DNA of 64,000 bases from Isoetes taiwanensis (lineage: Eukaryota > Streptophyta > Lycopodiopsida > Isoetales > Isoetaceae). Shown piece by piece: positions 36,716 to 62,500 of this stretch. Where the stretch lies: the NCBI GenBank assembly GCA_021234155.1, contig JAJEKV010000010.1, forward strand, positions 19,067,418 to 19,131,417, in the 5' to 3' direction. The notes under the pieces are model-generated. The model ran no database searches, was not told the origin of the DNA, and saw only the letters and a program-made list of their open reading frames with translations. The stretch's first letter is position 1, and each line of letters begins with the position of its first letter. Both the position numbers and the translations under genes were made by a program.

Positions 36716-37235
36716 AGAAATAAACTCAGGAGATGTCAACACTGGAGCGACCTCTGAAGCCATTACAACAGGGGTCATGACTGGAAAAAGTCTATTTGCT
36801 AAACAGAAAGAGGCTCAAGGGATCATAACATCTAAGGTTAGTCCATTATCAGACTGAAACTTAGAAATATGATAGCTAGGGATATGTGGATTTTTCTACT
36901 AAAGCACTATGAAGAAAAAGACCTCATCTCTATAGATCTTTTGGAAAAGGAACTAAGAAATCTCAAACTTCGAGATGAATATGATGTTTTTGAATATTTT
37001 AACAAATTTGAAAATATTATAGCAGACTTGGGGGAGGGCCGGAGTTATTTTGACCAAACATATCAAGTGCCGGCTATAGCTAGATCTGTAGTTGATAATG
37101 ACCAGCTATCCCTATTTATCAGAAATATAGCTAAGTCCAGAGAGGAAGCTGAAAGTATTCTCAGAACTTAAGTAGAACAAAAAAGGGTGATGAGAGATGA
37201 AGAGAGCTCAGATGAAATTTTGTATGCTGGAAGAA
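36716..37235 (+). pseudogene. Second Copia gag remnant, plus strand (copy B)
   Basis: Same as 5,986-6,515. Frames 36,630-36,857 (with KSLFAKQKEAQGIITSKVS) and 36,869-37,171 (MIARDMWIFLLKHYEEKDLI to AKSREEAESILRT). Stops between and after them are shared with copy A, so they are genuine decay. It is cut downstream by the LINE-II tail. Confidence 0.75.
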
Positions 37236-40253: not shown

Positions 40254-40266
40254 TTCTCCCCACCTT
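40254..40266 (-). other. Polypurine tract of giant element
   Basis: The minus strand reads AAGGTGGGGAGAA immediately upstream of the 3' LTR. This fixes the minus orientation together with the PBS at the other LTR. Copy A shows a degraded version at 9,523. Confidence 0.7.
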
Positions 40267-43170
40267 GAATTGATGTTGTCCGCAGCATCAGGAGTCTCCC
40301 CACCTTGGGCTCTTCCTGTCCTGCAATCAACCTGATGCCTACGATATACTACTATAATACTTACACATTTATTAAGATTACCTTAAGGTAATATTTTTAA
40401 ATCATTATTAGGCCATTACATTATCAAATAACTTGTCAAATCGTAACTTCTATTAAAACAAGGTACTTCTTAGTTTCTGTTATCACAACATTTAGTTTAT
40501 CACAATTTAACACTTTCATATACAATTATTATTTAAGGTACTCTTCATTCCTTGCAACATATTCCAACAAAATTTGTGTTGCAAGTCTTCGCACCTTAAA
40601 AATCTCAGATTAATTTTACAATATCTATAATTACACACTTACTATCTTAATTATTAGAATTACTCTAAGGTAATGTTTAAGACATTACTGTACTATTTTA
40701 TTATCCAATTAACTTATGACTTCATAACTTAATCCACGCAAGGTAATTATTGCCCTTACTTAATACAATATTTAAGTTTATCAAAGTTTATCAATTCCAT
40801 ACAAAATTTACACTTCTAAGGTACTCTTCATCCCTTGCATCACATTATAACAAAATTTGTGTTGTAAGTCTCAGAGTTCGACCTCCCCGCCCCCCCGGAG
40901 TGCTCTATTGGCCTCGAGGTCGCCACTACGCTAGAACCATTTTAATTATTAATAAAATTTTGGTTATATGGTGACCACCCCACCTATCTACATGGATGCA
41001 TGGCTAATCTCCCTGGAAGAGGGTGAATCTTCCATTATGGTCGTGGAGACAGCCTATATGCCTATATGTCGCCATGCCTACCCCCTAGTTGCCCAAATGG
41101 AGGATAGGTCCTTCCCCGTGATATGGGCTTGAAGGCCGCCAGATTCCTCCTATCAAAGCATATATGGGGCTAGAGGTGCTTTTCCTATCAATGCATTCCT
41201 GAATGACCTCCTTTCTCTCGAGGTCGCCTACCTCCGCGGGAACGTATAGTAGACTTTCTAATCTACCTTCCACTCATCCAAGCTTTAAACGCTGGCCATG
41301 CCTACATTGACATTACACCACGCCCTAGAGATCACCGTAGTAATCTCATCATCGGTAGCAACGCATGCAACCCTTACTCATAGGTTGCATGCGAGATTAT
41401 ACTTAACTACACATGAAATTAATCTAAACACAAATCGACATGCCCTGAGCCGCATTTTTGTCGGCTCACTTTAATGCATGTGATTAACATAATTACCTTA
41501 ACGTAATATTTATGAATTAACGCTATCATAGCATCTGATACATTACTCCGATAGTACAATTATATTTACTCTAAGCTTTACAATATTTAATTACTTTTAG
41601 ATCATGATTATTTAAACAATAACCCTAATTTTAGACCTATTGTTACATAGAGAAGGTTTCACCATCATACACAAGAATTAGATGTGCTTCTTATTCTCTT
41701 CCTTGGGTCTTGCATTACCCTTGGAAGTATATCCCTAAGATGCTTTTTAAGTATATCCTAATTCTATTTTCTATTTATATTTATAAGGACCTCGAGGTCA
41801 TATAGCTATCCTTGGAAGGAATTGCATCCCCGCTGGAAGGATTAATTAACATGCTAACTCACATTATCGTTGTTATTTAACTTATTTCCGTATGATACAT
41901 ATGCGTACATCAATTTCTATGCAGTTATTAGGATCTATATTTAACTTATCTATAAGACACATTAAAGCTTATAATACATGCGCACACCTTACCTAAGGCT
42001 AGAACGATCCACCCATTGAGTCATGCTGAGTAATTTGGAGATGACTTGGTCGCTGCATTGCTCCCATAGTTTTGCTCCACTTCATTGGTGTAGTTAGCTA
42101 CTACGCCGGGCCTCGCACGCTGAAGGCCTCCCCGAGCCTAAGGTATCTATCTATTTCACGCTCTATTCGCTTCGGCCATTGCCAGAGTGAACTCTATTCT
42201 ACGGGTCGGTCAATTCGATGCAAGTACGTTCAATCCTGAGATTGAGCCCTCCCACTTTCTTCGAAAAGAAAATGGTCATGCACCCCTTCAATGGCGTTGT
42301 ACACAATGTCATATTTATTCTCTCCCCTTAAGAGGTTATACGCTTCTTATTTAGCGCATTAATTTACTAGCCTTAGCTGACATATATAACCATCTAAGAT
42401 GGATATACATATTATGTTATCATTTATTTCAATATAGCTATGGGTTACCTACTTAGTTAGAACGATTCTAAACCACAAGGTTTTGTCATCATGACAATTC
42501 CTTTTGTCTCAAAAGACTATTTGATTACTATAATTTTTATTTTAGATGTACTTTGCATGTTCTATTCTTTTATATTCTAGAGATTCCCCCTTTCTTAGTT
42601 ATTTAAACTCTTGGAATATTCCCACCAATCGAATTGATGTCATCGTAACAAGTTGGCCGGACTTGTTAGATTACTTCTTTTCTTTCGGTTGGATTATTCT
42701 TTGGAGGTACTAAATTTATACATGGTCAACAATTATCCTAGTAATGATTCCTTCTTAGCGAGGTGATCAATCTCACCAAGTGGTTTCAATATGTTGGATG
42801 TCTGTTAACAATCTTGTATAATTTTAGTTACTCTTATGTGTTTCCTTCCCAATACTTGACGCTTAGCTCAATATTGGGCAATCCTTTCGGCGAGAATATC
42901 TAAAAAAAAAATGCCTTCTAATCCCAATGTGGATGTTGCCGTCCGTACATTTAACCTACTAGGCCCCATGGCCTTAGATTCCTGAGCTTGCTAGAAGCTC
43001 GTACGATCCTGCCGAGTTGACCCTCCTGGCAACTCGGGATCTTGTCAATACTTGAGGTTAGATCTAGGTTGATATGAACTTAATCCAACTATGTTGGTGA
43101 AGAATTTAATCTTCCAATAAATAATTGAAAATGATTCTCATTATGTATATAACTAATATCCAACCATTGT
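40267..43170. other. Giant-element AT-rich 3' interior
   Basis: Collinear with 9,523-12,389. It has the same degenerate 285-bp direct repeat (blocks ending near 40,580 and 40,870) and 'ttaccttaaggtaa' palindromes. No gene seen. Confidence 0.6.
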
Positions 43171-43178
43171 AATATAGC

Positions 43179-44640
43179 TCAAAAGAAATACACCCATATA
43201 GATTTATTCAAAATCAAAGCCAAGTTGCCTGCTTGAAGTAGCAAGGTACGTTCTTCCGAGTCGCTCGATACCTCAGTCTCCTGGACGGTGGCTCCTCTTG
43301 ATGTAGAGGTTGACTTTGTTCGTTTAGAAGCCTCTCCTTGTTGGTCTTTGATGGTGTAGTTGGTCACTTGAAATCTTCCATGCCGCTTTTCAAAAGCCTG
43401 AAGGTGGCGCCGTTGAAAAAGATCTTTCATCTTGAACTCTTTGTCTTGGCAGCTAAAGGACGACTCTATATCCGACATTGTTTCCTCGACTCCATCGACG
43501 TCTCATACATCGAGTCCTCTTGTCGTTATCGCGTTGCCCGAAGAGTGTTGAAGATGTTGATTGCTTCACCCCTGCAAATTGGCTGACATCTCTTCGTTTG
43601 ATTTGTTACGCTATGGGAGGGAAGAAATAACAAGGGAACTATATATGCAAAGCATATAGCTTACATAATTACAATTACTAATAGAGCTATTAAGTCCCCC
43701 TTGTGCCTCCCTTCTTCGAAGCTGCACACCTACTCCTTGGTAATGTCATCGGTGTTCCTCTCGGTGGCTTGGTGTTGACGATCTATATCCTCCTATTTGT
43801 GGTTGATACGTCACCGTATTCCTCGGTACTTGTTGATATACTTGGGCCCTCCGATGTTTGTCGGCTATGGCACAACACGCCATTTGCATCACATTCTAAT
43901 TAAAGGTGTGGGTGGTCGGTGATGCTTCGGACATTTCGGGGTCTGCAGCTCGATTACGTTCTCTCTGTAATTGTTCTAATAGAGCTCCCCCCTTCATGAT
44001 ACTTGAAGCTATTTGGAGGCGTCTCTTGAGGTACGTCGATGACCATATCTTCCTTTGGCTATACTCCTCCGAGTTGTTCTCTTCTTGCATTGTTCTTTGA
44101 ATCGTCCATCATTGGTTCACCTAAGTTGCATGCAAGTCCCCGTGCAAGTTATCGGCTCGCCTCGGCTCACCTAATTGCTTCTCCCTCGAGCTTCCAATCT
44201 TCCTTGTTTGATCCCCTCAGTCACATGGCTTGGACATTGTCACGTTCCTCAGTGCTATGCTGTCTTCTTGTCTTGAGGTACCCTCCGATGGTTTTGATTG
44301 TGCCCGTCAGTTTTGATCCTCCTGTTGCCTCTAGGGAGCTCGTGGAAGAAGTCGGTTGCTAGCACTTCTCCAGCTTTTAGTTCCTGACCTTTGTCCCTCT
44401 GTGCAGTGTGTCGTTGCAAGGTTGCCGATGTGCGGTGCCATTGATCCGTTGATCTCCTGGCTATTGCAGTCGGGCGTTCTTGAATGTCTTCGAAGCTCTG
44501 AGATCGTGGTCGGTAGGCAGGCATTGTCATTCCTCCGTAGGTTGAATTTCTGAGTGCGACTCCTGTTGCTTGGCACAAGGCCCCCAAAATTGAATCAGTA
44601 TGATTTTTTTGAAATGATTTATTAGTGAAAATCAAATCTT
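43179..44640 (-). pseudogene. Degenerate coding region of giant element, unknown product (copy B)
   Basis: Successive minus-strand frames read as protein: 44,255-44,635 (starting MIFTNKSFQKNHTD, with ALRNSTYGGMTMPAYRPRSQ), 43,896-44,090 (with IASSIMKGGALLEQLQRERN) and 43,179-43,478 (starting MSDIESSFSCQDKEFKMKDL). They are polar and basic, and the last is conserved in copy A as DIESPFSRQDKEFKMKDLFQ. This could be one frameshifted Gag-like or accessory protein. No domain recognised. Confidence 0.4.
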
Positions 44641-45399
44641 AAAATCATTACCAATATGTGGGCCAAAAAGTTTACAAACCATATCTGGTTATACATTATA
44701 GTTCATCACTACAATTCCACGACGTGATAAAAGATCATTGTTTTTTGATATGGTAGTAGAACATGATAGTTATAGTTAGTCTTCATAACAACTTAAAATA
44801 TATGATGTGCGTTATTGCTTAGTATGTCTAGTTTAATATAGAATGATTATCGATCCCATCTATCTTCCTTAGCATATACACATGGTAATTTTAAGGGTTT
44901 ATGTTACGATGATTTATAGTGATTAATCGTAACAACATACGATAAATGTAATTGGTTTAGGTTTGCTAGTATGAGTTTATAGTGATTAATTATAACAACA
45001 ATATATGATAATTATAGTTGGTTTAGATTTGCTAGTATGACTTTTTTTGCATGATACCAAATGGTTAACCACTGCAATATTACCAAATAGTTCACCACTG
45101 TAATTTTACAACCTAATTTTGAGCATGTGATATTTAATAGGGTTGTATGACAATGCAGTAGAGGATTTAGGGATACAATGGGAAGGTGAACATGTGGGAG
45201 TTGAACCCACAATTTTACCATGTGTTTCGCAATAAAATTAGATCAGATATAGTCATGTGATATGTTTCTAAAGAGCCAAACACCTAAAAGGAATGAGTAA
45301 TTTAGAAGCCAAATTTCTTTAGAAGCATAATCATTCCTAAAAGGAATGAGGAATTTAGACGCCAGATTGCTTAGAAGCATGGAAACAAAGGAGCATTAC
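44641..45399. other. AT-rich interior, no gene seen
   Basis: Local repeats only: 'gtttatagtgattaat' occurs around 44,913 and 44,975. A tRNA-T-arm-like stretch 'gtgggagttgaacccac' at 45,194-45,210 (minus strand GTGGGTTCAACTCCCAC) has no convincing partner D-arm. Confidence 0.4.
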
Positions 45400-46630
45400 C
45401 TAGTGTAATATGCAAGAAAGCCATTTGGCCCTGGTAACCCCAGCAATAACCCTGGAAAAAGACATAGGATCATAGAATATATAAAACTTAGAAAAAAATT
45501 GTATACAAGAAAACTCGGAGCAAGGCCAACCTATTATCGTTGTCGAACATTGGGTACAAAAATCCCTCCTTGAGGGACATCTTTAGTATGCATCTGAATA
45601 ACAAACAAGCAATAGCATATGTATTCAAAAATGAAAGACAGTGACATCTGCACAGACATTAACATTTCGTTAACTTATAGTAATCTTCCTGAATTTAATG
45701 GAAAGGACAAATAGCTTTCATTTTCATTTAAGATAGAGGGCCACAACTCTTTTTAATTTATTAGACATACAGGGCAAATTTGTTTTTCTAAAAGTAACTA
45801 ATAATTATTTGTTGATTATTTCCTATGCCAAAACTGGATAAGTTCTATAACCATATATTTTCTATCCAAGTGCATACCTCATTACCTATGAAAATCACTG
45901 CTACCTCTGGCACTTTGGCACTGTAATTGGAACACTATAAAACAAAAATACAAAACAAAGCATGTCAAATAAACAGTCTATTGTTCAACAAACCATATAA
46001 TCCTTAAACCTACATACCATCTTGCTGAATTGAGAAATTTGTTGTAGTACAGTATTAGATAATCCTTCTGCGAAAAATATTTGATAATCTACATCATGTC
46101 TTCTATCTTGGACACACCTGCAGATATTCATAGATATTTTAAAATCCTGGCAGATACCGTGCCGCTAAGAAGTCATTAGATGGATCCCCATTTTTCTGAA
46201 TGGACAAAACCCAGGTTCAGAGCTTGCAGGATATCTCTCGTGCTCTGATTCAAGTCAATTCGATTATTTTGATGTCTATGCATATGGTTTACATTCACAA
46301 AATCTTCCATTATTTGGGTATCCTTATCTATGCATATTGGATATTCATCTCAGATAAGTTCGAATTATGGATCAGCTGATAAATGACAATAACTCTCCAG
46401 CAAAGGAGAACAAAGCAAATGAAATGGAATAAGAGATTAGAAAAAGAAAAAAGGGAAAAACCTGGAACTGCTGGACCAGATGAACGCAGGAACCATTGAG
46501 GAATCCGCAGCATGCGAAACCACGGAAAAAAAATGGGAAGAGTAAGAAAACAAATTTGGGTGCCATGGCCGCGTCACTCGTCGGATCGTGCGTCTTGCAG
46601 CTTCTCGCCGGTTTATACTTTTGTTTCATG
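45400..46630 (-). pseudogene. Exon-like fragments of a captured host gene
   Basis: The minus strand looks like a short intron-containing gene piece. 46,563 back to about 46,460 encodes a signal-peptide-like MAPKFVFLLFPFFFRGFACC followed by a possible GT splice donor. Near 46,120-46,020 an AG acceptor precedes VDYQIFFAEGLSNTVLQQIS and QFSKM, ending at GTATGT. Near 45,940-45,890 an AG acceptor precedes NYSAKVPEVAVIFIG and a GT donor. A further possible exon lies at 45,595-45,525. The spacing of a QI-QF block and a VAVIFIGNE block resembles GDSL-type esterases (QI..F then GND), but the Gly-Asp-Ser block is not seen. Family assignment is weak. Confidence 0.35.
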
Positions 46631-47977
46631 CTAGGCTAACGTGCTCATAAGAGAAAATTCAAAAAATCTGTAAAGCAAAAGGCATCATAATCCGAAAATA
46701 TTGAGAATAGATCCGTGCAACAAGCCTGCAAGAATGCTGGAAGTAAGCAAGTGCAAAGGAACAATAAAAAATAATGTAAAAGCTGCACATCAAATAAAAG
46801 TTTCTACTTCAAAGGTAGTGATTCTTGCATCCTTCTGCAGCTTTAGAAACTATTCAATTTCATGAGCTACTTATTGGGCAATGGCTAGCAAGAGCTGAAA
46901 GACGCTAGTCGGATACCTATATTCTGTGAAGAGCCTCAGGTAAACTGCCATGCCTATGCTTGTTCTCAAAGAAGCATGATTCCCGCCCTATGTTATGGAT
47001 CGGCATCCTTTAGGGCATATGGCCGCTGCTAAGTGGAGCATGGCCGCATCCGGCGAAACCAAATGGGAGCTCTCAGCTCCACCGCCGCTGCTGCATTAGA
47101 AAAATGGAGGGAAATAGGGTTTGGGGCATTATCAAAATAAAGAATTCATATCCTTACGAATTACTCAAAAGAAAATTTAAAAAAGCCCTTATATTTATTT
47201 ATGGGGTATTTCCCAATGGTCAGGATAGTTCTACCCTAGTTTTGGGGATCCCGGAAGTGAAAAGACCGGCCTCCGTTATCACCGCCATCTCTCGACGGAA
47301 CCCGTTCCAGGCCCCTCCGTTTCACCGTACTGACACACGTGAGGGGACCTGCGCCAATCTCAGTCCTCCGCTCCCGTGACACATCCGGGCCGTCCATGCT
47401 GTTCCCCCCCTCTGGTATCATTATAAAACATACACGGTGATCCCGCCGTCCGCCGGATGGTGATCCCGGATGTGGGGATCACATGCGAACGATGCCTCCT
47501 CCAGGATCCCCAGTTAGCTGACGGGACAAATTAAGAAAATTAACCATTGGAAGAGAAACAAAGAATTAGAAAAATCACGTCCGCCAGATGGTGATCCCAG
47601 AGGACGGAATCATTTGCATGGTGATCCCCGAGGTGGAGATCATCGTGCACACGATGCCGTCCTCCGGGATCCCCAATTGGCGAACGGGACCATGGAACCA
47701 TAGAACAATAGAACCATTGAACCATAGAACAATTGAAAATAATAAAATAGAACAATTCAACATTACACTCACTGATATGAATTGAAAGTGTGAGAAATAC
47801 AAGTTTTGAATCTCAGGTTTCAGCCCCCAAAAGTTTGGACTAAATAGTCGACTTATGGCAACTTACATAAAGCCTCCATCTCAACTTCCTTCCAATTCTT
47901 CTTTGGTTCCTTCACCTTCCAGTTTCCAAGTTCTAATATAGGCTTGAGCCTTGTCAAGCTAGTACCACAGTTCACTT
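46631..47977. other. Interior with a duplicated 'ggtgatcccg' module
   Basis: No gene supported. Two related modules occur at 47,446-47,527 and 47,579-47,690. Each starts 'gtccgcc(g/a)gatggtgatccc', contains a G-A-T-C-rich stretch and ends '(a/g)ctgacgggac' or 'ggcgaacgggac'. An imperfect 'accatagaacaat' repeat follows at 47,690-47,760. Confidence 0.5.
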
Positions 47978-48379
47978 CTAAGTAGGCTCATGTAGACTTG
48001 ATATATTAGTGCTCGTGCCGGCTATGTCATCCATCTTCTCAAGTCTAAAGTCGAGCTTCCTCATGAGAGAATCAGTTGCAACTAAAATGTTAGGATCTTT
48101 GCCAGCCCTAGACATCACTCTAGCAATTACCACCTCAAAGGAGGCCTTAGTCTTCTCCAAGTCCACTCGACTGCATGTTTGCAAGGGAGACTCCTCTCCT
48201 AGGCCTACTACCTGAAGCACCTCGGATCCCCCATCTCCACAACTCTCTTGCACACTCTTACAACTCTCTTGCGCAACTCCGTATGGTTTCAAGCGGTCCA
48301 TGCCCCCACCAATTGTCCCATATTGGGAACCCAACACATGTAAAAGATCTTGATCCCTGTAATTGCCAAGCATTTGCAT
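47978..48379 (-). pseudogene. Unknown frame in giant element
   Basis: A 133-codon minus-strand frame. The C-terminal half (KASFEVVIARVMSRAGKDPN, LMRKLDFRLEKMDDIAG) looks protein-like and helical. The N-terminal half is less convincing. No family recognised. It could be part of the same decayed polyprotein as 49,080-49,752. Confidence 0.3.
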
Positions 48380-49079
48380 AACTTTTACTTGATGCTTATA
48401 TAGATTACCCTTGGCTCCCCAAGAGCAATCATAATATCCCCAATTCTTGTGTGCTTCAGCAACAAAATACGGGCCCTGCCCAACTATCTTACAAAACCAT
48501 ATAGGTTATACGACAATTAGCATTAGAAATCATCCTATATTACAGTATAAAAAATGCACGCTAAAAAAACACCTCCCAACTAGTGATGATTTCAAGAAAC
48601 TAGTATAAGAGATAGAATTAGTATAAAAAATATGATGCAAACTAGTAATGATTTACAAAACCATGGAGAATATATGGTTTTTGATGAGATTACAATTTAT
48701 CAGTACGAAAAATCACATTTATACTAGTTCTCATGGTGATTATTTATGCGTGCTCTTTTTTGGGGGGCTTGTGTGGGCTTTGCTTCATTCCGAGGTGCCT
48801 CTCCTGTGCCTGGAAGTGTGGTAATCTCCATTGCCCCTACCATGGCTCCTTCTAGTCGCCTTTGGTGACTTGTACCTGCTGGCTAGGTCGTCTCCTCCGT
48901 CCCTTGGATCTTATCCATTCGAGTCTCGCACTCCTTGGCTGACGTAGTAAAGTCGTCCTTCCTTTGCTTTCTATACGCTCCTGTGTCGCCATGACTTCTC
49001 TCCTCGACGGAAGATTATGCCCTCTGGCCCTAGCTCGTGATGCTAACGTGGCATTGCTGTCTAACTGTATTTTGCTGCC

Positions 49080-49752
49080 TTGCGTTCTTCCATTTGAAAC
49101 TCATGTGCGTCGAGCTGGTGAAGGCGTCGAGATCGTCTTTCTGATGTGAGCTCGTGGACGTGGTAGCCGGGAGGTTGACATCTAGAAGATGCTTGATGGG
49201 GTTGGTTACCGAATATTCTTCCCATTTGATGAAGATTGATGATAGGCCGGTGGTGTCCTATTCTACTCTTTTGTCGGTTGAGGTGTTTGTCGTTGTGCTT
49301 CCCTCTCTTGGGTCTGCCTTTTCGGTCCTTATCTGTCTGTACATCGGCTGGGACCTTGATGTCTTCAAGGAGTTGCGCCTCTAGCTCTTCTGTGGCTTTG
49401 GTCCCGTCCTTCGAAAGTAACGCTCGTATATATCCTAGAGTCTAAGGGTCTACTTGAAGGGCTCTCCTACAACATTTTGGGCTCTATAAGCAAGCAAGAT
49501 GGCTCGAGCAGCATTATTGGAGACATATCTATAATCTCCAAGTCTATGGACATTAGGACGTGTGGTATGGCATGAAATGAGGGTTGTTTTGCAAACCTCC
49601 ATGATGTTTGAGGTATACTCTAAGGTCCTATCAAAGTTGGTTTGGGGGAGTCCAATCTCTACACATGGAGTGACTTGGGCAGCTCTAGACTCTAGCTCCT
49701 TTCTAGGTATCCTGGCAATAGGGAGTGTCAATGTGGCAGCTGTATAGGTCAA
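49080..49752 (-). pseudogene. Second coding region of giant element, Gag-like, unknown
   Basis: The frame at 49,450-49,752 (starting MTYTAATLTLPIARIPRKEL, including RLGDYRYVSNNAARAILLAY) continues after one frameshift near 49,450. It then carries YIRALLSKDGTKATEELEAQ, DVQTDKDRKGRPKRGKHNDK and a His/Arg-rich stretch to about 49,080. An ordered N-terminal part followed by a charged, basic tail is compatible with a capsid/nucleocapsid-type Gag, but no zinc knuckle or known domain is visible. It lies about 0.8 kb downstream of the histone-like frame on the same strand. Confidence 0.4.
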
Positions 49753-50150
49753 ACTCTATTAAAAGAACACCAAATTAGGTCAAGGTTTATGCCTTTGGCA
49801 TGAGCAGAGGTGATGTACCAACAGTTAGACTTGGGTTGCTATGCTGAGGTCTAGATGACTATAACAAGGGGGTGTTCTTGGGCACTTCTCTCTAGGAGTA
49901 AGGCATCAGCTTTGAGCCAAGGTAATACTTGTGAGGTACTACTGGGGTATGCTTCTATTTACAAACAAACCACAGTTTGGAAAAACAATTCAAGGGTTTA
50001 AGCAATTTTGGTCATTTTGAGCTGGGGTTTGACATTTCTAGCCTAATTTTGAGGTCATAAATGGATTTTAGGCTGTCTAACGGTCCTATTGCAACAAATT
50101 TCAGACGATTTAGAGCTCTGTAGCTCAAGTTATGGGGTTTGAAAAATTGG

Positions 50151-50430
50151 ACGCCTCTAAGAGTGCGCGAGGGGGTGTTAGGTTGGGACCTAAGTGGCCT
50201 CTGGCGCACTCTTGGAGGTATTGGCCTATCTCTGCCTAATGGATGCCAAGAATCAGCTGGAAGGGGTAAATTTCTATTAATTTTCTTCCTAAATGCAAGT
50301 TTCTTTGTTTATTTACTACGTTTGGAGCAAGTAGGGCTAATCAAGGCCCCAGTTGGCTGGATGACTCTAAGAGTGCGCGAGGAGGGGGTTAGGTTGGGAC
50401 CTAACTATGCTCTGGCGCACTCTTGGAGGT
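50151..50430. repeat. Two hairpin repeats downstream of the H3-like gene
   Basis: Units at 50,151-50,219 and 50,361-50,430 share the pattern CTCTAAGAGTGCGC ... TTAGGTTGGGACCTAA ... GCGCACTCTTGGAG. The outer arms are inverted repeats of each other and the centre is itself palindromic (ttaggt-tggg-acctaa), so each can form a two-stem hairpin. Spacing between units is about 210 bp. Three further copies lie on the other side of the gene. Confidence 0.85.
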
Positions 50431-50572
50431 GTTGGCCAAATGTCGCATTTGCTCCAGATCTACTACTGTACCTAATGAAATACACATTTTTAAACGACTA
50501 TATATCTTTATTATTCAAAATTTTTATACACTACATATAAGCCCGCCGGGCTTACAAAAGTAGCTTCGCTCT

Positions 50573-51749
50573 CTATTTATCCGCCCTCTTGATGTATTTA
50601 GCCAATCTCATGTCCTTTGGCTGAAGCATGACTCTTTTTGCATGGACCGTGCATGCCAGTGAATCTTCGAAGTGTTGCACGGCCTCCATCTCTGCTGCTT
50701 CTTGTAAAGCGAGTAACATGTCGTTGGTTACTCGCTTGTCGGGGTCGAATTCCCACAAAATCTCCCGGACAAATCTCTGGAATGCAGCTCTGGGAATAAG
50801 AAATCCGTAACTCCGTTGGAAGTGTCGGATTTCTCGCAAGGCTTTCCCAAATACTGAATTTTGGGATCTTCTCTTGGCTTCGTGGGGGTCCGTGGCTCGT
50901 GTGGGTGTCACCGGAGTGTCTCACGGTTGGCCGCCCTCCTTCAATATATTTTACCTTGTGTGCCTCGTAATAGGCACTGTACTCGGTGTGCATCCTCTTA
51001 TATATGGTATAGTCTGCTAACTCTTTCTGGTACCTCCTCTCGGGCCCTAAAGTGTATGATTCTCTGGCCGTTTTCTTCGCCTTCTTTGGTGCTGCTTTGT
51101 CTGCATCTAGCTTCCTCGCTTCTTGCCATTGCGAAAACGGTGGAGGCATTGGCGGGGGTAGTTCATTCTGGGGTCCTGCCGGGTCTTGGGCTGGGGTTTG
51201 GCCCTCCTCTTGGGGTTCATCTGTCTCAGGATGATTGTTCTTGTTCTTCTGCGAGGATTCTCCTGTTCCTACAAGTACTTCTTCCAAGAAGTTCTGCGCG
51301 TCCCTCGAATCTTCCGACGACGATGGAGGTTGGTCGCCTTCGGGTCGTTCACCGATGACGATGTCGACCGAGCTCCTCCTCTTCTTCTGCGGGGGCTCGT
51401 CTGTCATCACCCTTTTGCCTTTCCTGTGGTGTTCTTCCCTGCTCTTCGTTCCCTGTTCGCGCCCTTGGTCTTCATCAGCCTCCTCGGCTGCTCCCTGTGC
51501 TTTCTTCCTTGCCCTCTCCTCTCTCCTCTTTGCTTTTTCCTCTTTCCTCTTTGCCTTCTCTTCTTTTCTCTTGGTCTTTTCTTCTTTCTTCCGCCTCTTC
51601 TCTAGATTTCGGTAGTATCTAGGTCTCCTCTCCATGTCGGCCTTCAGTTTCTCTTCGGCATCTTTGAGTTTCTACTCGGTGGCGAGGACTTGGGCACTAG
51701 GCTAATCATCGTTGCTTACCTTAGGAGCGGTCTGCTTCGTCTTAGCCAT
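50573..51749 (-). CDS. Histone H3-like protein with long charged insert
   Basis: On the minus strand the frame opens at 51,749 with MAKTKQTAPK, nearly the histone H3 N-terminal tail (ARTKQTARK), with Lys4 and Lys9 equivalents kept. ATG context is favourable (A at -3, G at +4). Two TAG codons fall within the first 26 codons, then 345 codons are open (51,635-50,598). These comprise a Lys/Glu/Arg coil, an NLS-like PPQKKRRSS, an acidic Ser/Pro/Gln stretch, and KKAKKTARESYTLGPERRYQ. After a one-step frameshift near 50,930 comes a complete H3 fold: ALREIRHFQRS (alpha-N), FQRFVREI, ALQEAAE, HAKRV, PKDMRLAKYI. From ALREI to the end it aligns gaplessly with canonical H3, about 43 of 89 identical by eye. 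Loop 1 has canonical length, unlike CENH3. It sits at the gag position of a retroelement. Role unknown. It could package element nucleic acid or target chromatin. Confidence 0.82.
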
Positions 51750-52700
51750 TGTTTGACAGGAGTTCGATTTGGATCGTATGCGGAAGATCGCTGTTGGGAC
51801 AAGCTCAAGGACAACGGGGAAACCCTAAAAATGAGGTCCGAGTCCACTTAATTTATAGGGTTAAATTTTAGGGTTTGGCCTAAGTGCTTATTTTCTTGGT
51901 TTGTTGGTGAAATCCTCTATATCCCGAATCAAGCCGGGTCCTTCTTCAACTATTTTTCCTCGAACCCTTCTCGAAAGCATGCGCCGAGGAGCGTGTTAAG
52001 TCCAGACCTAACTATGCCCTGTTGCATCCTTAGAGGTGTGGACCTCTTTTTGCTTTAAACTTATCCAATTTAAACAAATTAACATGCGTTTCCCACTAAT
52101 GTAAGCATTCTAAGCAAGATTCTATCATTACCTTTACCTTTTGAGTAAGTTATGATCAATTTTTGCAGTCACTTTTAGGGATGCCTCTAAGAGTGCATCG
52201 AGGGGGGTTAGGTCGGACCTAACTATACTCAAGGCCTTTGGAGACATTGTTCCAAAAGTGTCTTGTACTTAACGTTTTTCGATGTTTTAACATATAATTC
52301 TAGCTATTTCGAGCTTTTTGATTGGGATTTCATCTTTTATTTTATCATTTGGAGTTCCTAAGGCCAAGTTCTAGGGTTCGTAGGGGTGACTACTCTAAGA
52401 GTGCACGAGAGGGCCATTAGGTCTGAACCTAACATGCTCCTGGCGCACTCTTGGAGTCATTGGCCTAAAGTGCTTGAAATTTAGTAGGCTCTCTTAAGTG
52501 CTTTTCGTCTGTTTGTTCTATCTTACCTATGTTCTCTAATTATCCTAATCCTAGATAATTACTAACTCTACCCCAGGAAGAAAAATTTTCCCGCTACTCG
52601 AGGTTTGTGCTTGGGCTTTTACCTCCAAGACTGAATGTCTAGACGAGTTAGTTCCTATAGAGTTTTGGTCAGTGCTCGATCCTGGTCTGCCAAGATCAGA
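51750..52700 (-). promoter_or_regulatory. 5' leader of giant element with three hairpin repeats
   Basis: A roughly 950-base untranslated leader lies between PBS and the H3-like start. Three copies of the hairpin motif lie at about 51,975-52,037 (degenerate, lacking the left arm), 52,181-52,244 and 52,388-52,458, spaced about 200 bp. The last reads CTCTAAGAGTGCACGAG ... ATTAGGTCTGAACCTAA ... GCGCACTCTTGGAG, with both arms nearly perfect. The position suggests an RNA-level role such as packaging or dimerisation, but that is inference. Confidence 0.65.
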
Positions 52701-52712
52701 GCTCTGATACCA
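52701..52712 (-). other. Primer-binding site of giant element
   Basis: The minus strand reads TGGTATCAGAGC, complementary to initiator Met-tRNA, one base inside the 5' LTR. Extension to AGAGCTCT continues partly. Confidence 0.88.
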
Positions 52713-52713
52713 T

Positions 52714-54262
52714 TGTGACGGCTCCAGCTCATATAGGATGCCCCGATCGTATACAAACTGGAGATCATCCCTCAAACCAAAGATTCTGCCACGACATGAG
52801 GCCGTCCACCTAACATCGGGCTCTTGATGGTGGCCAAGAACCCGACGGGAAGAATGGACGGTTATTCATCCCGCCTCCCTGGATCGACCTAGCCGCGGAA
52901 GCGTAAACAAAACATGAGCACATGACATCAATCAACAATAACATACCCACCCTCGGCGGGTGGTCCACCATATCACAAAGAGCCGCAACAACACATCAAG
53001 ACATCAACATAACATGGGGAAATCCTACCCGTGCTCGCACTCATGGGGAAAGACTGACGTTTGGGGTCTCCGTGATAGCAATGCGCATTGCAATTCATGG
53101 CAAATGGATTTGGCTAGCATAGGAGCATGGTCGCTGGGTAGTCCACTCCATCCGCCCTCCCCCTGCATACTTTGCAGATAGGTGAAAAGTATTGGAGCCC
53201 CACCGTAGCCCCGCCAGAATGGCCGAGGGGCTACTACTACCGGGTTGCATCTCCCCAGCCCCCGATGAGGCAGAGGAGATCACTCCCTCCGTGAGATTCA
53301 TGCCAATCACAAAGCGAAGCTAGAGAGCCACCGCCAGATTCGACTTCAACTCACCGGAAGGTGACGATCACCCCACGAGTGTCGAGCCCCATACCCCGCC
53401 TCACGCAGCGCCGTGGTATTAGGCCTAGCTCACAAAGATTCCCCGGCCGCCGCTACGCGCCCGGATCAACCGCGGATTAGATAAGCCCTCCCTTGTCGAC
53501 GGCCTAGCTCCGCCACCCACCAAAGCGGGCTCTTATGCACAAAGCCGCATTAATTGGGAATTAATGGGCTAAAACTAGATCATCCAACTACTTGGGCTCG
53601 AAGTCTCTACCCCCTTCCCAATACACAAGAGTGGCGATAGAATGTCAAAACAACATCACAACAGAATGAAAATAATAGAATACATCTATTCTAATCTACC
53701 TAATCATACATGGTTAGGTTCCTTTGTTAATTCCTATCATTCTTAGGGTCAGAGGGGTCATTTATAGCTAAGAATGAATACTAATCCTATGGAATGAGGT
53801 CGAGAACTCTTCGATTTAACTATCGATCAACCACTAACCCGCTTCTTGGCTGGCTCCCACTGAAGGCGCCCATGCCGCCGGATCTCGAGACCGCCGGTCC
53901 CGGATCGAGCCGCAACCTATGAATTCGATTCCTCCGCTACTCTTCAGCGAAATGGCTTCAAAGCCGCCGCAATCCGACCTATAGGGGCTGGAAACCGAAA
54001 GGGTTTCCCTTTTAGGGTTTATGCCCCTTTATGCCCACGAATTTAGGGCTGGGCCCTTTTGGTCAATGGGCCATTGCCACGTGGCAAAAAGGGATTACAT
54101 TCACATGTTGCTTTAACATGTGCAATATAATGGTTCACAAGGTCGTACCCTAGGGTACTACCCTTTACGGTCGCCGTGTACATGTCGTCTGAGTCGACAT
54201 GTACTAGTGACATGTCAGTATAATATACGTATTCATACCGTATGTTATGCTGGAACGTCACA
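52714..54262 (-). repeat. Giant-element 5' LTR
   Basis: 1,549 bp, TGTGACG...CGTCACA. The PBS lies on its left and the TSD copy GGCCA on its right (54,263-54,267). Closely similar to 38,704-40,253. Many differences are one- to four-base changes around CAG/CTG/CCG trinucleotides. Confidence 0.92.
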
Positions 54263-55470
54263 GGCCACCACCTCCATGTTCTTGCATCCAGATCTCCAAC
54301 TTGTCAATATAGAGTCAAAAAAGCATTGGAGATAACGGGCATCCCTGTTTAACACCTATGGTGCTGTTCACCCGGTGGTCTGCCGCAGGCAAAGTGGCAT
54401 ATATTCCATCATAGAGCCAGTAGATGGCATTCTGCAAATCCTGTGCGACATGTAGCTCCTGCAAGCGTTGCCACAATAGGTCCCGAGGGACCGTATCATA
54501 TGCCATCTTAAAATCCACGAAACAGCAATACAAGTCACGTCGTGCATTGCGGCTCGCTTCCATAAGGATTCTGAGAGTAAAAATATGATCACTCATGGAG
54601 TGGGCAGGGCAAAAACCTGCCTGGCCAACTGCACGTACTTCAGTTTCCTCCGTCCATTGCATTAACTTCTTCTCCAGCACACCTGCTAGAAGTTTAGGCT
54701 CACCATGATCATACGGTAGTTGGTGGAGTCATCCCTGCTTCCCGTCTTATGAATAGGGGTGACCTTGCTAACCCTCCATTCCTGCGGGGGGCCCTCTCTG
54801 ATGGCCTGATTGATTATCCCTCGCCAAAGGCCCGAGCAAAGCTGGCCCACCCCATTTCAACAGCTTTACTGAAGTCCCCGCAAGTCCTTTGCTTTTACCA
54901 TTAGCAAGATGCCTAAGACCCCGTGGATGTCCTCCTCCTCGAAAGTCGTAGTGTTTCTCCTAGTTGATCCGGGTACATCATTTGCTTCGGGGGATCATAC
55001 AACTCCTCCAACCGCCGCTCCACCGGGTCCGAGGTAACATTGTCGTGGTTGATGCCTCTTATACAACACTCTACATCAAAAGGCTTTTGCCTCGCCATCG
55101 TGAGATCGCATTACGCGCTGCTGATTTTCTCGCAATGTAGCGATGCTTTTGGATTTCGTGAATGCCTTATAGTCTCTAATGGCCTCGCTGCCGTAGAGCC
55201 GTGGATCTAAGATGGTGCGTGAGTGACTCTTTAGAGCCTTACATTCAGCCAAAAACAGGGTTTTGAGGGAATTGCGCAAAGGTCCCTTCACGGAGGCGTT
55301 TTTGCCGCAAAGCATTCACCGGGTCGCCGCTAATAAGGCCTTCACCAACCATTCACACTTATCATGCAATGTATAGAGGGCATCTATCCCCAGAGCTCGT
55401 GTTCAAGCCACCTCATATCCTCGCTTAGCCTCGATAGTTCGGGTGTATCCCAAACCCCGAAAGCACTACA
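54263..55470 (-). pseudogene. LINE-II reverse-transcriptase domain, 5' part
   Basis: The frame at 54,315-54,680 carries AGFCPAHSMSDHIFTLRILM, CCFVDFKMAYDTVPRDLLWQ (motif A catalytic Asp) and GVKQGCPLSPMLF (motif B), all standard LINE RT blocks. Further right, broken frames give the preceding RT motifs (IREGPPQEW, IHKTGSRDDSTNYR; 54,690-54,820) and the linker before RT (ECKALKSHSRTILDPRLYGS; 55,076-55,315). The RT is interrupted after LEIWMQEHGGG by the giant LTR and should resume at 38,703. No endonuclease is seen. The 5' end is lost at the CpG-rich block near 55,470. Confidence 0.85.
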
Positions 55471-56035: not shown

Positions 56036-56190
56036 CTTATCGCTTGGAATGCCAAAATTACCCTATGGACTAAGTTACACTACCGGGCTTTGCAAAAAAC
56101 GACACACACTTTACGCCTCTACACCGCAAAAAGATTCAACAACCACCTCCTAGGCCAATTGACTACGAAAGTGTATTGCACATGAGATAG

Positions 56191-59100
56191 TTTGGCGCTT
56201 CTTCGAGAAGGGGTGGGCTTCGCCACAAAACTTGGTCCCTAGGGCAATGTCGACGCTCGAGTCCATTGGCGAGACAGATCACGGTTCCGAGGGGAAGTTG
56301 CCCGTCCGGCCGCCAGTGGCCTTTGGGAGAGGACTTTTGGGGCAAGTTGCTTCCCGGTGGTTTTAGGGTCCGTGGCTCAAGGCCAACACCCCCTCTACGC
56401 CAAGACACCACGCAAGGTCCTAGTCGACCGACAAGGATAGAGCCCAAACGTAAACCCTATGAGTTGCCGTGTTCTAGCAGTGGTTTGGCGCTTTGGGTGC
56501 CGAAGTTTTGGTCTTTTGCACTTGGGACGTGGCCAATCACATGCGCTGAGAACGCTGGCAAGGGGAACTGACGGAATGGAGTTTGGACCTGTACTCCTCC
56601 CGCTGTGGCGCTTAGAAGTCAAGGCCCGCTTTGCGGTAGCAAGACATTCGTAAATTGTAATTAATGCATAGTAATGGACTTAAATTCTGATTTTTGTCAG
56701 CTAGCATCCTAAGTCATCGCCAACATACAGGCCAACTTTCAAAAATTTTGATATGGTTTAGATCAAATAGTTTGCACTAGAACGGTCCGGCAGCCTGTTG
56801 TTGGGCAGCCGAGCTGGCACACTTGCCCAAGTCAAACAAGGCCAGGACCTTGCAAGGCCTCCTCATTAGAGGGGAGAGTCCGAACCCCAGGAGGCGAGCC
56901 CCAAAAAAGCTTCCCCGAGGCAGCCTTTCGGCAGCGCTCCACGGGGCGACGCTAAAGACCACACTCCCGGATCTCTGCCCCGTGATCCGACCGCTGAATC
57001 CTTTGTTCCAGAACCTGGTCCGAGAAGGTCCAAAAATCCAACATCCGTCCGAGAACATATCGAATCACGCCGCGCCCAAGGGCGACAGCCAGAGAAACCA
57101 AAGTGTTTTGTCGTTCGGACATTGCAGAGGCTCCGAAATGCCGATCCGACTTCGCCACATCGTCCGGAATGCCAAAATTACCCTAGGGACCAAGTTATAC
57201 GGTCAGTTTTGCAAAAGAAACAAACACTTACAACCTACATTGCAGTATTCAGCAGCCACCTCCTAGGCCAATTGACTACGAGTGTGTTGCACATGAGATA
57301 GTTTGGCGCTTCTTCGAGAAGGGGTGGGCATCTGGGCACAAAACTTGGTCCCTAGGGCAATGTCGATGTTCTGAGTCCATTGGCAGAGACAGATAACGGT
57401 TCCGGAGAGGGGAAGTTGCCCGTCCGTCGCCAGGGCCTTCGGGAGAGGAATTTTGGGGCAAGCTGCTTCCGGGTGGTTTTTAGGGTCCGTGCTCTGGCGT
57501 CAACACCCCCCCTCTACATCAAGACATGGCGCAAGGTCCTAGTCAAATCTGACAAGGATAGAGCCTCCGAAACGTAAACCCTATGAGTTGCCAGGTTCTA
57601 GCAGGGTTTGCGTTTTGGGTGCCGAGTTTTGGTCTTTTGCACTTGGGACGTGGCCGATCACATGCAGTTGAGAACACGAAGCAAGGGGAACTGACGGAAT
57701 GGAGTTTGGACCTGTACTCCTCCCGTTGTGGCAGTTAGAAGTCAAGGGCCGCTTTTGCAGTAGCAAGACATTCGTAAATTCGTAATTAATGCATAGTACG
57801 GACATAAATTCTGATTTTTGTCACCTAGCTTCCTAAGTCATCGCCAACATACGCACCAACTTTCAAAAATTTTGGATATGGTTTAGATCAAATAGTTTGC
57901 ACTAGAACGGTCCGGGCAGCCTGTTGTTGGGCAGCCGAGCCGGGCACACTTGCCCAAGTCAAACAAGGCCAGGACCTTGCAAGGCCTCCTCATTAGAGGG
58001 GAGAGTCCAAAACCCGTGAGGCGAGCCCCAAAAGCTTCCCGAGACAGCCTTTCCCGGCAGCAAAAGGCCGGGGTGTACGCTAAAGACCACACTCCCCGAT
58101 CTCGGTTCGTGATCCCACCGCTGAATCCTTTGTTCCGTGAACCTGGTCCGAAAGGTCCAAAAATCCAACATCCGTCCGGATAACATATCAAACCGCTGGC
58201 GCCCCGCTGGCGACAAGTAGAAACCAAAGTGTTTTGTCGTTCGGACATTGCGAGGAGGTTCAAATCCCGATCCGACTTCGCCACATCGCTCTAATGCCAA
58301 AATTACCCTAGAGACCAAGTTACACGGGCCGGGTTTGCAAAAGAAAGAAACACTTACGCCTCTACATTGCAAAAGATTCAAAGCAGCCCACCTCCTAGGC
58401 CAATTGACTACGAAAGTGTGTTGCACATGAGATAGTTTGGCGCTTCTTCGAGAAGGGTGGGTTTCTCGCCACAAAAACTTGGTCCCTAGGGCAATGTCGA
58501 CGTTTTGAGTCCATTGGCGTAGACAGATCACGCCCGGAGAGGGGAAGTTGCCCGCTCGCCGCCAGGCCTTTGGGAGAGGACTTTTGGGGCAAGCCGCCTT
58601 CCGGTGGTTTTAAGGGTCCGTGCTCAAGGCCAACACCCCCCTACGCCAAGACACGGCGCAAGGTCCTAGTCGACCGACAAGGATAGAGCCTCCAAACGTA
58701 AACCCTATGAGTTGCCGTGTTCTAGCAGGGTTTGCGTTTTGGGTGCCGAAGTTTTGACTTTTGCACTTGGGACGTGGCCAATCACATGCAGCTTGAGAAC
58801 GCTGAAGCAAGGGGAACGACGGAATGGAGTTTGGACCTGCACTCCTCCCTTGTGGCGCTTAGAAGTCAAGGGCCGCTTTTGCAAAGAGCAAGACATTCGT
58901 AAATTCGTAATTAATGCATAGTACGGACTTAAATTCTGATTTTTGTCAGCCTAGCATCCTAAGTCATCGCCAACATATAGAAACCAACTTTCAAAAATTT
59001 TGGATATGGTTTAGATCAAATAGTTTGCACTAGAACGGTCCGGGCAAATGAAATGGGCACACTTGCTCAAGTCAAACAAGGCCGACCTTGCAAGGCCTCC

Positions 59101-59545
59101 TCATTAGAGGGGAGAGTCCAAACCCGTGAGGCGAGCCCCAAAAGCTTCCCCGAGGCAGCCTTTTCCTCGGCAACCCGGGGTGGCGTGACGCTAAAGACCA
59201 CACTCCCCGGATCTCGGTTCCCGTGATCCCACCGCTGAATCCTTTGTTCCGGGAACCCGGTCCGAAGGTCCAAAAATCCAACATCCGTCCCCGAGAACAT
59301 ATCAAACCGCTGCCGCCCCCGCATGCGACAGCCAGAAACCAAAGTGTTTTGTCGTTCGGACATTGCGGGAGGTTCAAATGCCGAACCGACTTCGCCACAT
59401 CGTCCTAATGCCAAAATTACCCTAGGAACCAAGTTATACGGCCGGGCTTTGCAAAAGAAACAAACACTTACGCCCTACACCGCAAAGATTCAACAAATGC
59501 CACCTCCTAGGCCAATTGACTACGAGTGTGTTGCACATGAGATAG
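56191..59545 (+). repeat. Satellite higher-order repeat 1 (monomers P-Q-R)
   Basis: Three monomer types can be told apart. P (56,191-57,301) has 'cggggcgacgc' and the tail 'aacctacattgcag'. Q (57,302-58,435) has 'ctacatcaagacatggcg', 'ggggtgtacgc' and the tail 'gcctctacattgcaaaag'. R (58,436-59,545) has 'ggggtggcgtgacgc' and the tail 'gccctacaccgcaaag'. Confidence 0.75.
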
Positions 59546-62500
59546 TTTGGCGCTTCTTCGAAGGGGTGGGCTTCGCCACAAAACTTGGTCCCTAGAGCAA
59601 TGTCGACGCTCGAGTCCATTGGCGCAGACAGATCACTTGCCCGGAGAGGGAAGTTGCCCGTCCGCCGCCGTGGCCTTTGGGAGAGGACTTTTGGGCAAGT
59701 TGCTTCCCCGGTGGTTTTAGGGTCCGTACCTCAAGGCCAACACCCCCTCTACGCCAAGACACGACGCAAGGTCCTAGTCGACCGACAAGGATAGAGCCTC
59801 CAAACGTAAACCCTATGAGTTGCCGTGTTCTAGCAGTGGTTTGGCGCTTTGGGTGCCGAAGTTTTGGTCTTTTGCACTTGGGACGTGGCCAATCACATGC
59901 GCTTGAGAACGCCAAGCAAGGGGAACTGACGGAATGGAGTTTGGACCTGTATCCTCCCGCTGTGGCGCTTAGAAGTCAAGGCCCGCTTTTGCAAAGAGCA
60001 AGACATTCGTAAATTCGTAATTAATGCATAGTACGGACTTAAATTCTGATTTTTGTCACCTAGCATCCTAAGTCATCGCCAACATACAGCCAACTTTCAA
60101 AAATTTTGGATATGGTTTAGATCAAATAGTTTGCACTAGAACGGTCCGGGCAGCCCGTTGTTGGGCAGCCCGAAGCCGCACACTTGCCCAAGTCAAACAA
60201 GGCCAGGACCTTGCAAGGCCTCCTCATTAGAGGGGAGAGTCCAACCCCGTGAGGCGAGCCCCAAAAAGCTTCCCGAGGCGCCTTTTCGGCGGCAGCCCCG
60301 CCCGGGCGACGCTTAAAGACCACACTCCCGATCTCGGTTCCCCCGTGATCCGACCGCTGAATCCTTTGTTCCAGAACCTGGTCCGAAAGGTCCAAAAAAT
60401 CCAACATCCGGCCCAGAGAACATATCGAACCGCTGGCCGCCCCTGCGGCGACAACAGAGAAACCAAAGTGTTTTGTCGTCGGACATTGCAGAGGTTCAAA
60501 TGCCGATCCGACTTCGCCACATCGTCCGAATGCCAAAATTACCCTAGGGACCAAGTTATACCTGGCCGGGTTTGCAAAAGAAACAAACACTTACAACCTA
60601 CATTGCGTTATTCAAAGCCAGCCCACCTCCTAGGCCAATTGACTACGAAAGTGTGTTGCACATGAGATAGTTTGGCGCTTCTTCGAGAAGGGTGGGCATC
60701 CGGGCACAAAACTTGGTCCCTAGGGCAATGTCGATGTTCCGAGTCCATTGGCGAGACGGATAACAGATTCCGAGAGGGGAAGTTGCCCGTCCGTCCGCCG
60801 TGGCCTTCGAGAGGAATTTTGGGGCAAGCCGCTTCCGGGTGGTTTTAGGGTCCGTGCTCAAGGCCAACACCCCCTCTACATCAAGACATGGCGCAAGGTC
60901 CTAGTCAAATCGACAAGGATAGAGCCTCCAAACGTAAACCCTATGAGTTGCCGTGTTCTAGCGGGGTTTGCGCTTTGGGTGCCGAAGTTTTGGTCTTTTG
61001 CACTTGGGACGGGCCGATCACATGCGCTTGAGAACGCAGCAAGGGGAACTGACGGAATGGAGTTTGGACCTGTACTCCTCCCGTTGTGGCGCTTAGAAGT
61101 CAAGGGCCGCTTTTGCAAAGAGCAAGACATTCGTAAATTCGTAATTAATGCATAGTACGGACATAAATTCTGATTTTTGTCACTAGCTTCCTAAGTCATC
61201 GCCAACATACAGCCAACTTTCAAAAATTTTGATATGGTTTAGATCAAATAGTTTGCACTAGAACGGTCCGGCAGCCTGTTGTTGGGCAGCCGAGCCGGCA
61301 CACTTGCCCAAGTCAAACAAGGCCAGGACCTTGCAAGGCCTCCTCATTAGAGGGGAGAGTCCAACCCCGTGAGGCGAGCCCCAAAAAAGCTTCCCCGAGA
61401 CAAATTTTTCTCGGCAAACAAAGGGGGGGTACGCTTAAAGACCACACTCCCTGATCTCTGTTCCCCGTGATCCCACCGTTGAATCCTTTGTTCCAGAACC
61501 TGGTCCGAGAAGGTCCAAAAATCCAACATCCGGTCCGGATAACATATCAAACCGCTGAAGCGCCCCGCGGGCGACAAGAAAACCAAAGTGTTTTGTCGTT
61601 CGGACATTAAGGAAGGTTCAAATGCCGATCCGACTTCGCCACATCGCTCGAATGCCAAAATTACCCTAGAGACCAAGTTACACGGCCAGTTTTGCAAAAA
61701 GAAAGAAACACTTACGCCTACATTGCAAAAGATTCGCCAGCCCACCTCCTAGGCCAATTGACTACGAAAGTGTGTTGCACATGAGATAGTTTGGCGCTTC
61801 TTCGAGAAGGGTGGGTTTCGCCACAAAACTTGGTCCCTAGGGCAATGTCGACGCTTTGAGTCCATTGGCGAGATGTATCACGGTTCCTGAGAGGGAAGTT
61901 GCCCGTCCCGCCGCCGTGGCCTTTGGGAGAGGACTTTTGGGGCAAGCCGCCCGGTGGTTTTAAGGGTCCGTGCTCAAGGCCAACACCCCCCACGCCAAGA
62001 CACTACGCAAGGTCCTAGTCGAATCGACAAGGATAGAGCCTCCAAACGTAAACCCTATGAGTTGCCGTGTTCTAGCGGTGGTTTGCGCTTTTGGGTGCCG
62101 AAGTTTTGACTTTTGCACTTGGGACGGGCCAATCACATGCAGCTTGAGAACGCTGAAGCAAGGGGAACCGACGGAATGGAGTTTGGACCTCAGATCTCCC
62201 CTTGTGGCGCTTAGAAGTCAAGGGCCGCTTTTGCAAGAGCAAGACATTCAGAATTGTAATTAATGCATAGTACGTGACTTAAATTCTGATTTTTTGTCAC
62301 CTAGCATCCTAAGTCATCGCCAACATACAGCCAACTTTCAAAAATTTTGGATATGGTTTAGATCAAATAGTTTGCACTAGAACGGTCCGCAGCACGTAAT
62401 GAGCCGCACACTTGCCCAAGTCAAACAAGGCCGGGACCTTGCAAGGCCTCCTCATTAGAGGGGAGAGTCCGAACCCCGTGAGGCGAGCCCCAAAAGCTTC

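Follow-up and report, generated by a model that had tools for sequence, protein, structure and literature searches.

An LTR retrotransposon lineage of Isoetes taiwanensis with its own histone H3-type gene

Introduction

Single core histones carried by genomic parasites are known from DNA viruses, and the available part of PMC9145170 describes such singlets as bracovirus H4 and the H3 of nucleocytoplasmic large DNA viruses (NCLDVs), some with long N-terminal extensions, and adds that single viral histones close to those of the host are thought to enter host nucleosomes, which is the precedent that we cite for deposition as an H3 variant. Long terminal repeat (LTR) retrotransposons of plants can carry additional open reading frames (ORFs), as in the orchid elements with an AlkB-type demethylase (PMC9289625, in the part available). 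Chromoviruses have been described from non-seed plants (PMC2864245; PMC3350952, in the parts available), and as of 2012 no factor that interacts with plant group II chromodomains had been found, according to the available part of PMC3350952. Here we describe a 64,000-nucleotide stretch of the Isoetes taiwanensis genome (assembly GCA_021234155.1, contig JAJEKV010000010.1, positions 19,067,418 to 19,131,417 of the forward strand; hereafter the window), in which an LTR element contains an ORF, here termed ORF1, that ends in a histone H3 fold. The element belongs to a lineage of LTR retrotransposons that has an H3-type histone of its own, maintained by selection, a finding that we regard as real and unusual.

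The first-pass annotation of the window, made from the sequence letters alone, had held that no plant LTR element with an H3 fold was known, and the full-text literature that we searched yielded no precedent. In the parts available, a review of additional ORFs contains no word beginning "histone" (PMC7264820), a screen of 121 angiosperm genomes names no histone among its domains (PMC9289625), the main text on viral histones contains no word beginning "retro" (PMC9145170), and the paper on the Isoetes taiwanensis genome has no occurrence of "histone" (PMC8566536). No histone-encoding retroelement was found in the full-text PMC literature, which mostly excludes subscription papers and preprints. 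Within the literature searched, the carrier is of a known kind and the H3 gene in such a carrier was not known before.

Results

An H3 histone fold at the end of ORF1

In the window copy of the element, ORF1 and its recognizable parts are as follows:

50573-51749, minus strand: ORF1 (H3-fold protein), broken by two in-frame stops near its start and by a frame change just before the fold
51720-51749, minus strand: H3 tail tip, codons 1-10, reading MAKTKQTAPK (other copies have MARTKQTARK)
50576-50842, minus strand: H3 histone fold, corresponding to host H3 from A47 to the C-terminus, 45/89 residues identical to host H3

The H3 fold that had been recognized at 50573-51749 is borne out by three comparisons. 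The C-terminal 115 residues of ORF1 match the Pfam Histone family PF00125 significantly (70.8 bits against a cut-off of 26.4; E 1.6e-19), in the profile search that the annotation had suggested, they match nucleosomal H3 chains in the PDB (E 1.8e-20), and the fold aligns with the host's own H3 without gaps from A47 to the C-terminus, giving a complete histone fold from alpha-N onwards. The earlier count of 43 identical residues among 89, made against a remembered H3, lies close to the computed value. The tail tip at the start of ORF1 had been overlooked and is an addition to that account. Outside the H3 fold, ORF1 matches no Pfam family over its cut-off, and the H3-fold part of one fuller copy (L022) also matches CENP-S and CENP-T_C, both below their cut-offs. 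ORF1 does not have the capsid fold or zinc knuckle of a gag or nucleocapsid protein, its fold matching Histone and gag lying in a separate frame.

The window copy is a decayed LTR element

The element that contains ORF1 is delimited by the following features:

38704-54262, minus strand: whole LTR element, 15.56 kb, with an LTR pair, a primer binding site (PBS), a polypurine-like tract and a near-perfect target site duplication (TSD)
52714-54262, minus strand: 5' LTR (TGTGACG...CGTCACA), 90.0% identical to 38704-40253
38704-40253, minus strand: 3' LTR, 90.0% identical to 52714-54262
52701-52712, minus strand: PBS, TGGTATCAGAGC, 12 bases
40254-40266, minus strand: polypurine tract, AAGGTGGGGAGAA, adjoining the 3' LTR, by eye
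38699-38703, no strand: left flank 5-mer GGCTA of the TSD, 4/5 bases matching the right flank
54263-54267, no strand: right flank 5-mer GGCCA, 4/5 bases matching the left flank
49456-49755, minus strand: ORF2 remnant, homologous to a portion of the ORF2 of L027, a fuller copy (BLASTP E 5e-11; tblastn E 6e-08)

The PBS is of the tRNA-iMet type. The frame had been placed inside a bounded LTR element rather than in a neighbouring host gene, and the LTR pair, the PBS, the flanking 5-mers and the multicopy state of the frame agree with this; a host H3 pseudogene or neighbouring gene is ruled out by that multicopy state, the LTR bounds and the TSDs. The interior had also been called non-coding. This holds for the window copy, in which a tblastn search of 38704-54262 with eight gag-pol and ORF2 pieces recovered no gag-pol piece at E 0.01, the ORF2 remnant (49459-49701) being the sole match, but it does not hold for the family, whose fuller copies carry gag-pol. 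The window element is a decayed, non-autonomous member of family B (see below), to which it is assigned because its LTR is 85% identical to that of a pol-bearing copy (L027/L028). About 7 kb of its interior (~41700-48950) is unmatched by another copy of the window type (L024) and is probably a separate insertion; a frame of 175 residues within it (47978-48505) has no Pfam match.

ORF1 is multicopy and falls into three protein families

All genome searches were made in one genome of 1,658,258,908 bases in 1,110 contigs; about 8,000 rough H3-fold candidates came up there, of which the best 150 were scored. According to the first-pass annotation, a frame found only once in the genome would point to a chance capture; the merged search lists give at least 350 distinct further places with an H3-fold match, after removal of the window itself and of the 15 top rows that scored as canonical H3, the element context having been checked for part of these places. 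Stop-free ORF1 frames of about 390-490 residues are present in many copies. The fold is C-terminal in all copies read, and where the start is visible it is preceded by ~290-370 element-specific residues.

Among the copies read, three protein families can be distinguished by the majority sequence of the fold, which is identical to host H3 at 77/89 positions in family A (15 copies), at 45/89 in family B (23 copies, including the window's) and at 49/89 in family C (3 copies), these copy counts omitting three duplicates (L001, L024, L029) and eight fetched loci that lack a continuous fold. Of the H3 tail, only the first ten residues are kept in B and C copies. In family A the tip is partial in one A3 copy (MARTKG, L044) and unrecognizable in A1 and A2, the latter starting MPRFKL.... 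Of 19 loci compared, 13 (L002-L005, L007-L014, L018) share window sequence downstream of ORF1, and this shared stretch, which marks them and the window copy as a window-type subfamily, extends past the point at which L027 passes into ORF2. One such window-type copy (L023/L024, C908:4.37 Mb) has no further frame of more than 140 residues downstream of ORF1 within the fetched pieces, and ORF1 may be the sole intact gene in some copies of this type, as judged from the downstream context of L014 and L024 only.

Fuller copies are chromoviruses with two extra ORFs

Four elements besides the window's were examined in pieces, three of them with pol, and the order in the fuller copies is LTR, PBS, ORF1, ORF2, gag-protease-reverse transcriptase (RT)-RNase H-integrase-chromodomain, LTR. 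The element at C908:3.25 Mb (L025/L026) has LTRs that are 96.5% identical, the PBS, an ORF1 of 485 residues, an ORF2 of 470 residues and a frame of 1385 residues with capsid (Ty3_capsid E 2.4e-16; Retrotrans_gag E 2e-15), protease, RT, RNase H and the integrase zinc domain, the match to the integrase core family rve (30.1 bits) lying slightly below its cut-off of 32.6. The element at C1018:14.51 Mb (L021/L022) has the same ORF order and LTRs 93.9% identical; its gag region appears frame-shifted by eye, and the chromodomain (E 8.2e-10) was found in L021 only. The family-B element on C980 (L027/L028) has the PBS, an ORF1 with the tip MARTKQTARK, an ORF2 with one stop, protease and RT, as well as a frame that looks gag-like by eye and in Pfam gives only a below-cut-off match to SR-25. 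The exact PBS string is present in L026, L027 and the window, and was not found in L021/L022 or L023/L024. The 5-bp TSD is exact in all three pol-bearing copies, and such duplications around three LTR-to-LTR units imply that the H3 ORF transposed with them.

Judged by domain content, with gag and PR-RT-RNaseH-INT in L025, the C-terminal chromodomain supplied by L021, and the LTR pair, PBS and 5-bp TSD, the carriers are Ty3/Gypsy chromoviruses, with a chromodomain that looks by eye to be of group II. The "gag position" assigned to the H3 frame in the first-pass annotation is wrong, because in the fuller copies a real gag lies downstream, at the start of gag-pol, and the H3 frame stands as an additional ORF that follows the PBS and precedes ORF2; the separate gag frame likewise rules out ORF1 as gag. 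The second extra ORF is located as follows:

L026:1-414 with L025:8906-9901, and L027:4986-6557: ORF2, ~460-490 residues, a conserved second protein of the element

ORF2 has at least 122 genome matches among those listed, many in frames of 480 residues or more, and no match in Pfam (E 10), in the PDB by profile or in viral contigs.

The H3 ORF is linked to pol

Among the 135 best family-A pol matches (the query's own included), a listed H3 lies 2.4-4.6 kb upstream on the same strand in 27 cases and an opposite-strand H3 between 2 and 5 kb in none, while chance would give ~0.5 family-A pairs in a 15-kb range with both sides and both strands counted. Because the H3 lists are incomplete, we drew a sample of 13 from the 107 pol matches that have no listed H3 at 1.5-8 kb and took a 1.4-kb upstream piece from each. 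Seven of these pieces contain an H3 on the right strand. Six do not: in one (L061) the H3 lies just beyond the piece, in two nothing was recognized, and the other three are taken up below. The 30 best pol matches to family B (at least 86% identity, the query's own included) include 18 with an H3 3.1-4.4 kb upstream on the same strand and two more with one at 8.2 and 10.6 kb; of the 110 remaining rows, 12 were picked by eye for a shared contig and checked, and three of these have an H3 ~3.6 kb upstream and one has it downstream.

The H3 fold is under strong purifying selection

The ratio of nonsynonymous to synonymous substitution (dN/dS) across copies, which the annotation had suggested as a check, was computed by the Nei-Gojobori method for pairs with dS 0.2-1.6, from open frames, a choice that biases toward low values. 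Fold medians are 0.02-0.06 within subfamilies (A1 0.018, 2/3 pairs; A2 0.046, 20/21; B 0.063, 39/45), and those for the rest of ORF1 are 0.128 (3/3), 0.124 (12/21) and 0.209 (34/45), respectively. The H3 fold is under very strong purifying selection within subfamilies, stronger than that on the rest of ORF1. Two values for pol in L021 versus L025 (dN 0.048, dS 0.336; dN 0.107, dS 0.664) show that pol is constrained too. Between a C and a B copy (L054 and L027), six of the ten tip codons differ without a single residue change, and 8 of 18 B and C copies among the matches listed have the exact tip, the near-match pattern used excluding lost tips. The window copy has diverged from L004 in a near-neutral manner (dN 0.015, dS 0.018), as expected after insertion, and three open-frame copies of the window type (L004, L008, L014) show mild constraint only, with ratios of 0.41-0.49 over the whole ORF1.

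The capture from H3 is old

The profile and alignment matches establish, at the level of sequence, that the ORF1 fold was derived from a eukaryotic histone H3. Silent sites are saturated relative to host H3 in all seven copies compared and also in the one A-B pair compared, so the capture is old. ORF2 is homologous between families A and B (E 2e-11), which indicates a shared architecture. The ORF1 extensions of B and C match (E 1.5e-33); no homology was shown between those of A and B (E 0.087 over 14 columns) or of A and C (E 0.42), and K64R is the only derived fold residue that A shares with B or C.

Surroundings of the window element

A third LTR copy at 7963-9522, 81.6% identical to the 5' LTR, is perhaps a solo LTR, and PBS-like strings occur elsewhere at 4779 and 19335. 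The right flank of the element contains an RT fragment (54318-54728, minus strand; RVT_1 E 4.9e-10) that appears by eye to be of the long interspersed nuclear element (LINE) type, and a LINE-like frame, also by eye, lies to its left (36333-36725, minus strand). The flank of L028 likewise has an RT frame, and a preference of the element for RT- or LINE-like targets is possible. Outside the element there are up to four direct copies of a ~1.12-kb unit (56039-60000) and a weak match to the RT-integrase frame (30576-30782, minus strand; 30% over 69 residues, E 1e-05).

Discussion

We propose, at odds that we put slightly above even, that the ORF1 protein takes host H4 as its partner and is deposited as a variant of H3. 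The protein would be imported and chaperoned like H3, would pair with host H4 and would be placed on DNA of the element itself, unintegrated or newly integrated, or else on chromatin that is meant to be found by the chromodomain integrase. There the extension and tail tip could attract or keep away proteins that read the H3 tail, and the element would thereby control the chromatin in which it lands or is silenced. Selection on the H3 gene in many copies suggests that the element uses the borrowed histone for its own ends, and among the functions offered in the first-pass annotation those directed at chromatin appear to fit best. There are 39 fold positions common to the A, B and C majorities and the host, including R49, R69, R72, R83, K115, R116, T118, C110, H113, D123, L126 and I130. 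At 18 positions that we take to contact DNA, H3' or ASF1, the host residue is kept at 15 in family B (versus 30/71 others, p 0.0017) and at 15 in family C (versus 34/71, p 0.006), a pattern that favours a working H3-H4 unit.

Several observations weigh against this proposal. In family A, where 17/18 of the contact positions are kept versus 60/71 others, the enrichment is not significant (p 0.25), and families B and C have lost R63 and R129, with a possible weakening of DNA contact or of chaperone binding. A single-sequence model of the window fold, made as the suggested structure check, has its helices in the expected order, but at low confidence (predicted local distance difference test, pLDDT, 65.6), and although Foldseek ranks four nucleosome entries highest for it (46-49% identity), their E-values of 0.014-0.029 (none at E 0.001 or below) and TM-scores of 0.37-0.45, under 0.5, mean that the model adds little. 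Among the upstream pieces without an H3, two (L065, L067) have a long LTR match at the place of ORF1 and one (L064) a match of 89 bp, so some pol-bearing copies have no ORF1 there, having lost it or never had it, and ORF1 may be dispensable in cis. The scope is also that of a single genome.

As an alternative, the protein could be a histone mimic, its fold and MARTKQTARK tip titrating H3 chaperones or silencing enzymes and readers and so relieving silencing with no need to enter nucleosomes. This fits the tip, which in B and C has stayed exact or near-exact while its codons changed silently, and the retained residues L126, I130, D106 and K122, which face chaperones. Titration alone leaves unexplained why the DNA-contact residues R49, R69, R72, R83, K115, R116 and T118 are retained in the majorities of all three families, and A2 is without such a tip, so that we consider it unlikely while giving it some weight.

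A role inside the virus-like particle, where the H3 fold would package RNA or complementary DNA as an auxiliary nucleocapsid, seems to us distinctly unlikely. The place of ORF1 ahead of gag, its charged extension and its strong conservation would suit such a role, but the element has its own capsid-type gag, with a CCHC knuckle visible by eye, without a Pfam row, in the L025/L026 gag frame, and an H3 fold needs an H4-type partner, of which none was recognized in the element; ORF2 matches no Pfam or PDB family.

Less probable again is that there were two captures, one of canonical H3 that gave rise to A and one of CENH3 that gave rise to B and C, whose H3 would guide the element to centromeres. 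Derived residues shared with rice CENH3 number 7/23 in B, 8/22 in C and 0/8 in A, and rice CENH3 joins an unrooted tree between host plus A and B plus C, the reference sequence forming a long row on that tree. CENH3 has a longer loop 1 than canonical H3, but loop 1 of the element fold is of canonical length without a CENH3-type insertion, and the tail tip is canonical. A host CENH3 was not found in the genome with the rice query, the three candidates inspected being of the family-A kind, either H3 copies or a fragment, and the homologous ORF2 fits one old capture too.

Passenger capture or a functionless pseudogene has next to no probability, because the broken, near-neutral window copy and the mildly constrained window-type copies that speak for it are outweighed in the family, for which it is refuted, by the copy number, the fold dN/dS medians and the fixed place in the element, the first two of which also rule out a single chance capture without function, so that it holds for decayed copies only.

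To return to deposition as an H3 variant, it is conceivable, though we rate the chance as small, that the element has a private addressing system, in which the self-made variant is set at chosen chromatin and the variant or its modified tail is the ligand of the chromodomain integrase. On this reading ORF1 would supply the partner that plant group II chromodomains have lacked, and the mark read by the element would be one that it writes itself. The finding bears on that partner question in any case, as a chromodomain element here has its own H3. The family is moreover a set of H3 variants from nature that are under heavy selection and multiply as parasites, and it can show which surfaces of H3 a genomic parasite needs. 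Annotators may count these ORFs as host histone variants.

Comparison with known systems

Compared with plant Ty3/Gypsy chromoviruses, the elements described here are alike in their LTRs, PBS, capsid-type gag, protease, RT, RNase H, integrase, chromodomain and 5-bp TSD, and differ in having two extra ORFs before gag, one of them for an H3-fold protein. With plant LTR elements that have additional ORFs they share a host-like domain fixed in many copies (PMC7264820; PMC9289625, in the parts available), whereas the extra ORFs described previously occur more frequently in the interval from pol to the 3' LTR (PMC7264820, in the part available) and those described here lie ahead of gag. CENH3 resembles the element protein in combining an H3 fold with a diverged tail, and families B and C have a few CENH3-like residues by comparison with the rice reference, but the element H3 has a canonical loop 1, a canonical tip and a very long extension. 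The singlet histones of DNA viruses are similar in that a mobile parasite carries one core histone near that of its host (PMC9145170, in the part available). Their carriers are DNA viruses, whereas the carrier here is an LTR retrotransposon, a case undescribed in the literature searched.
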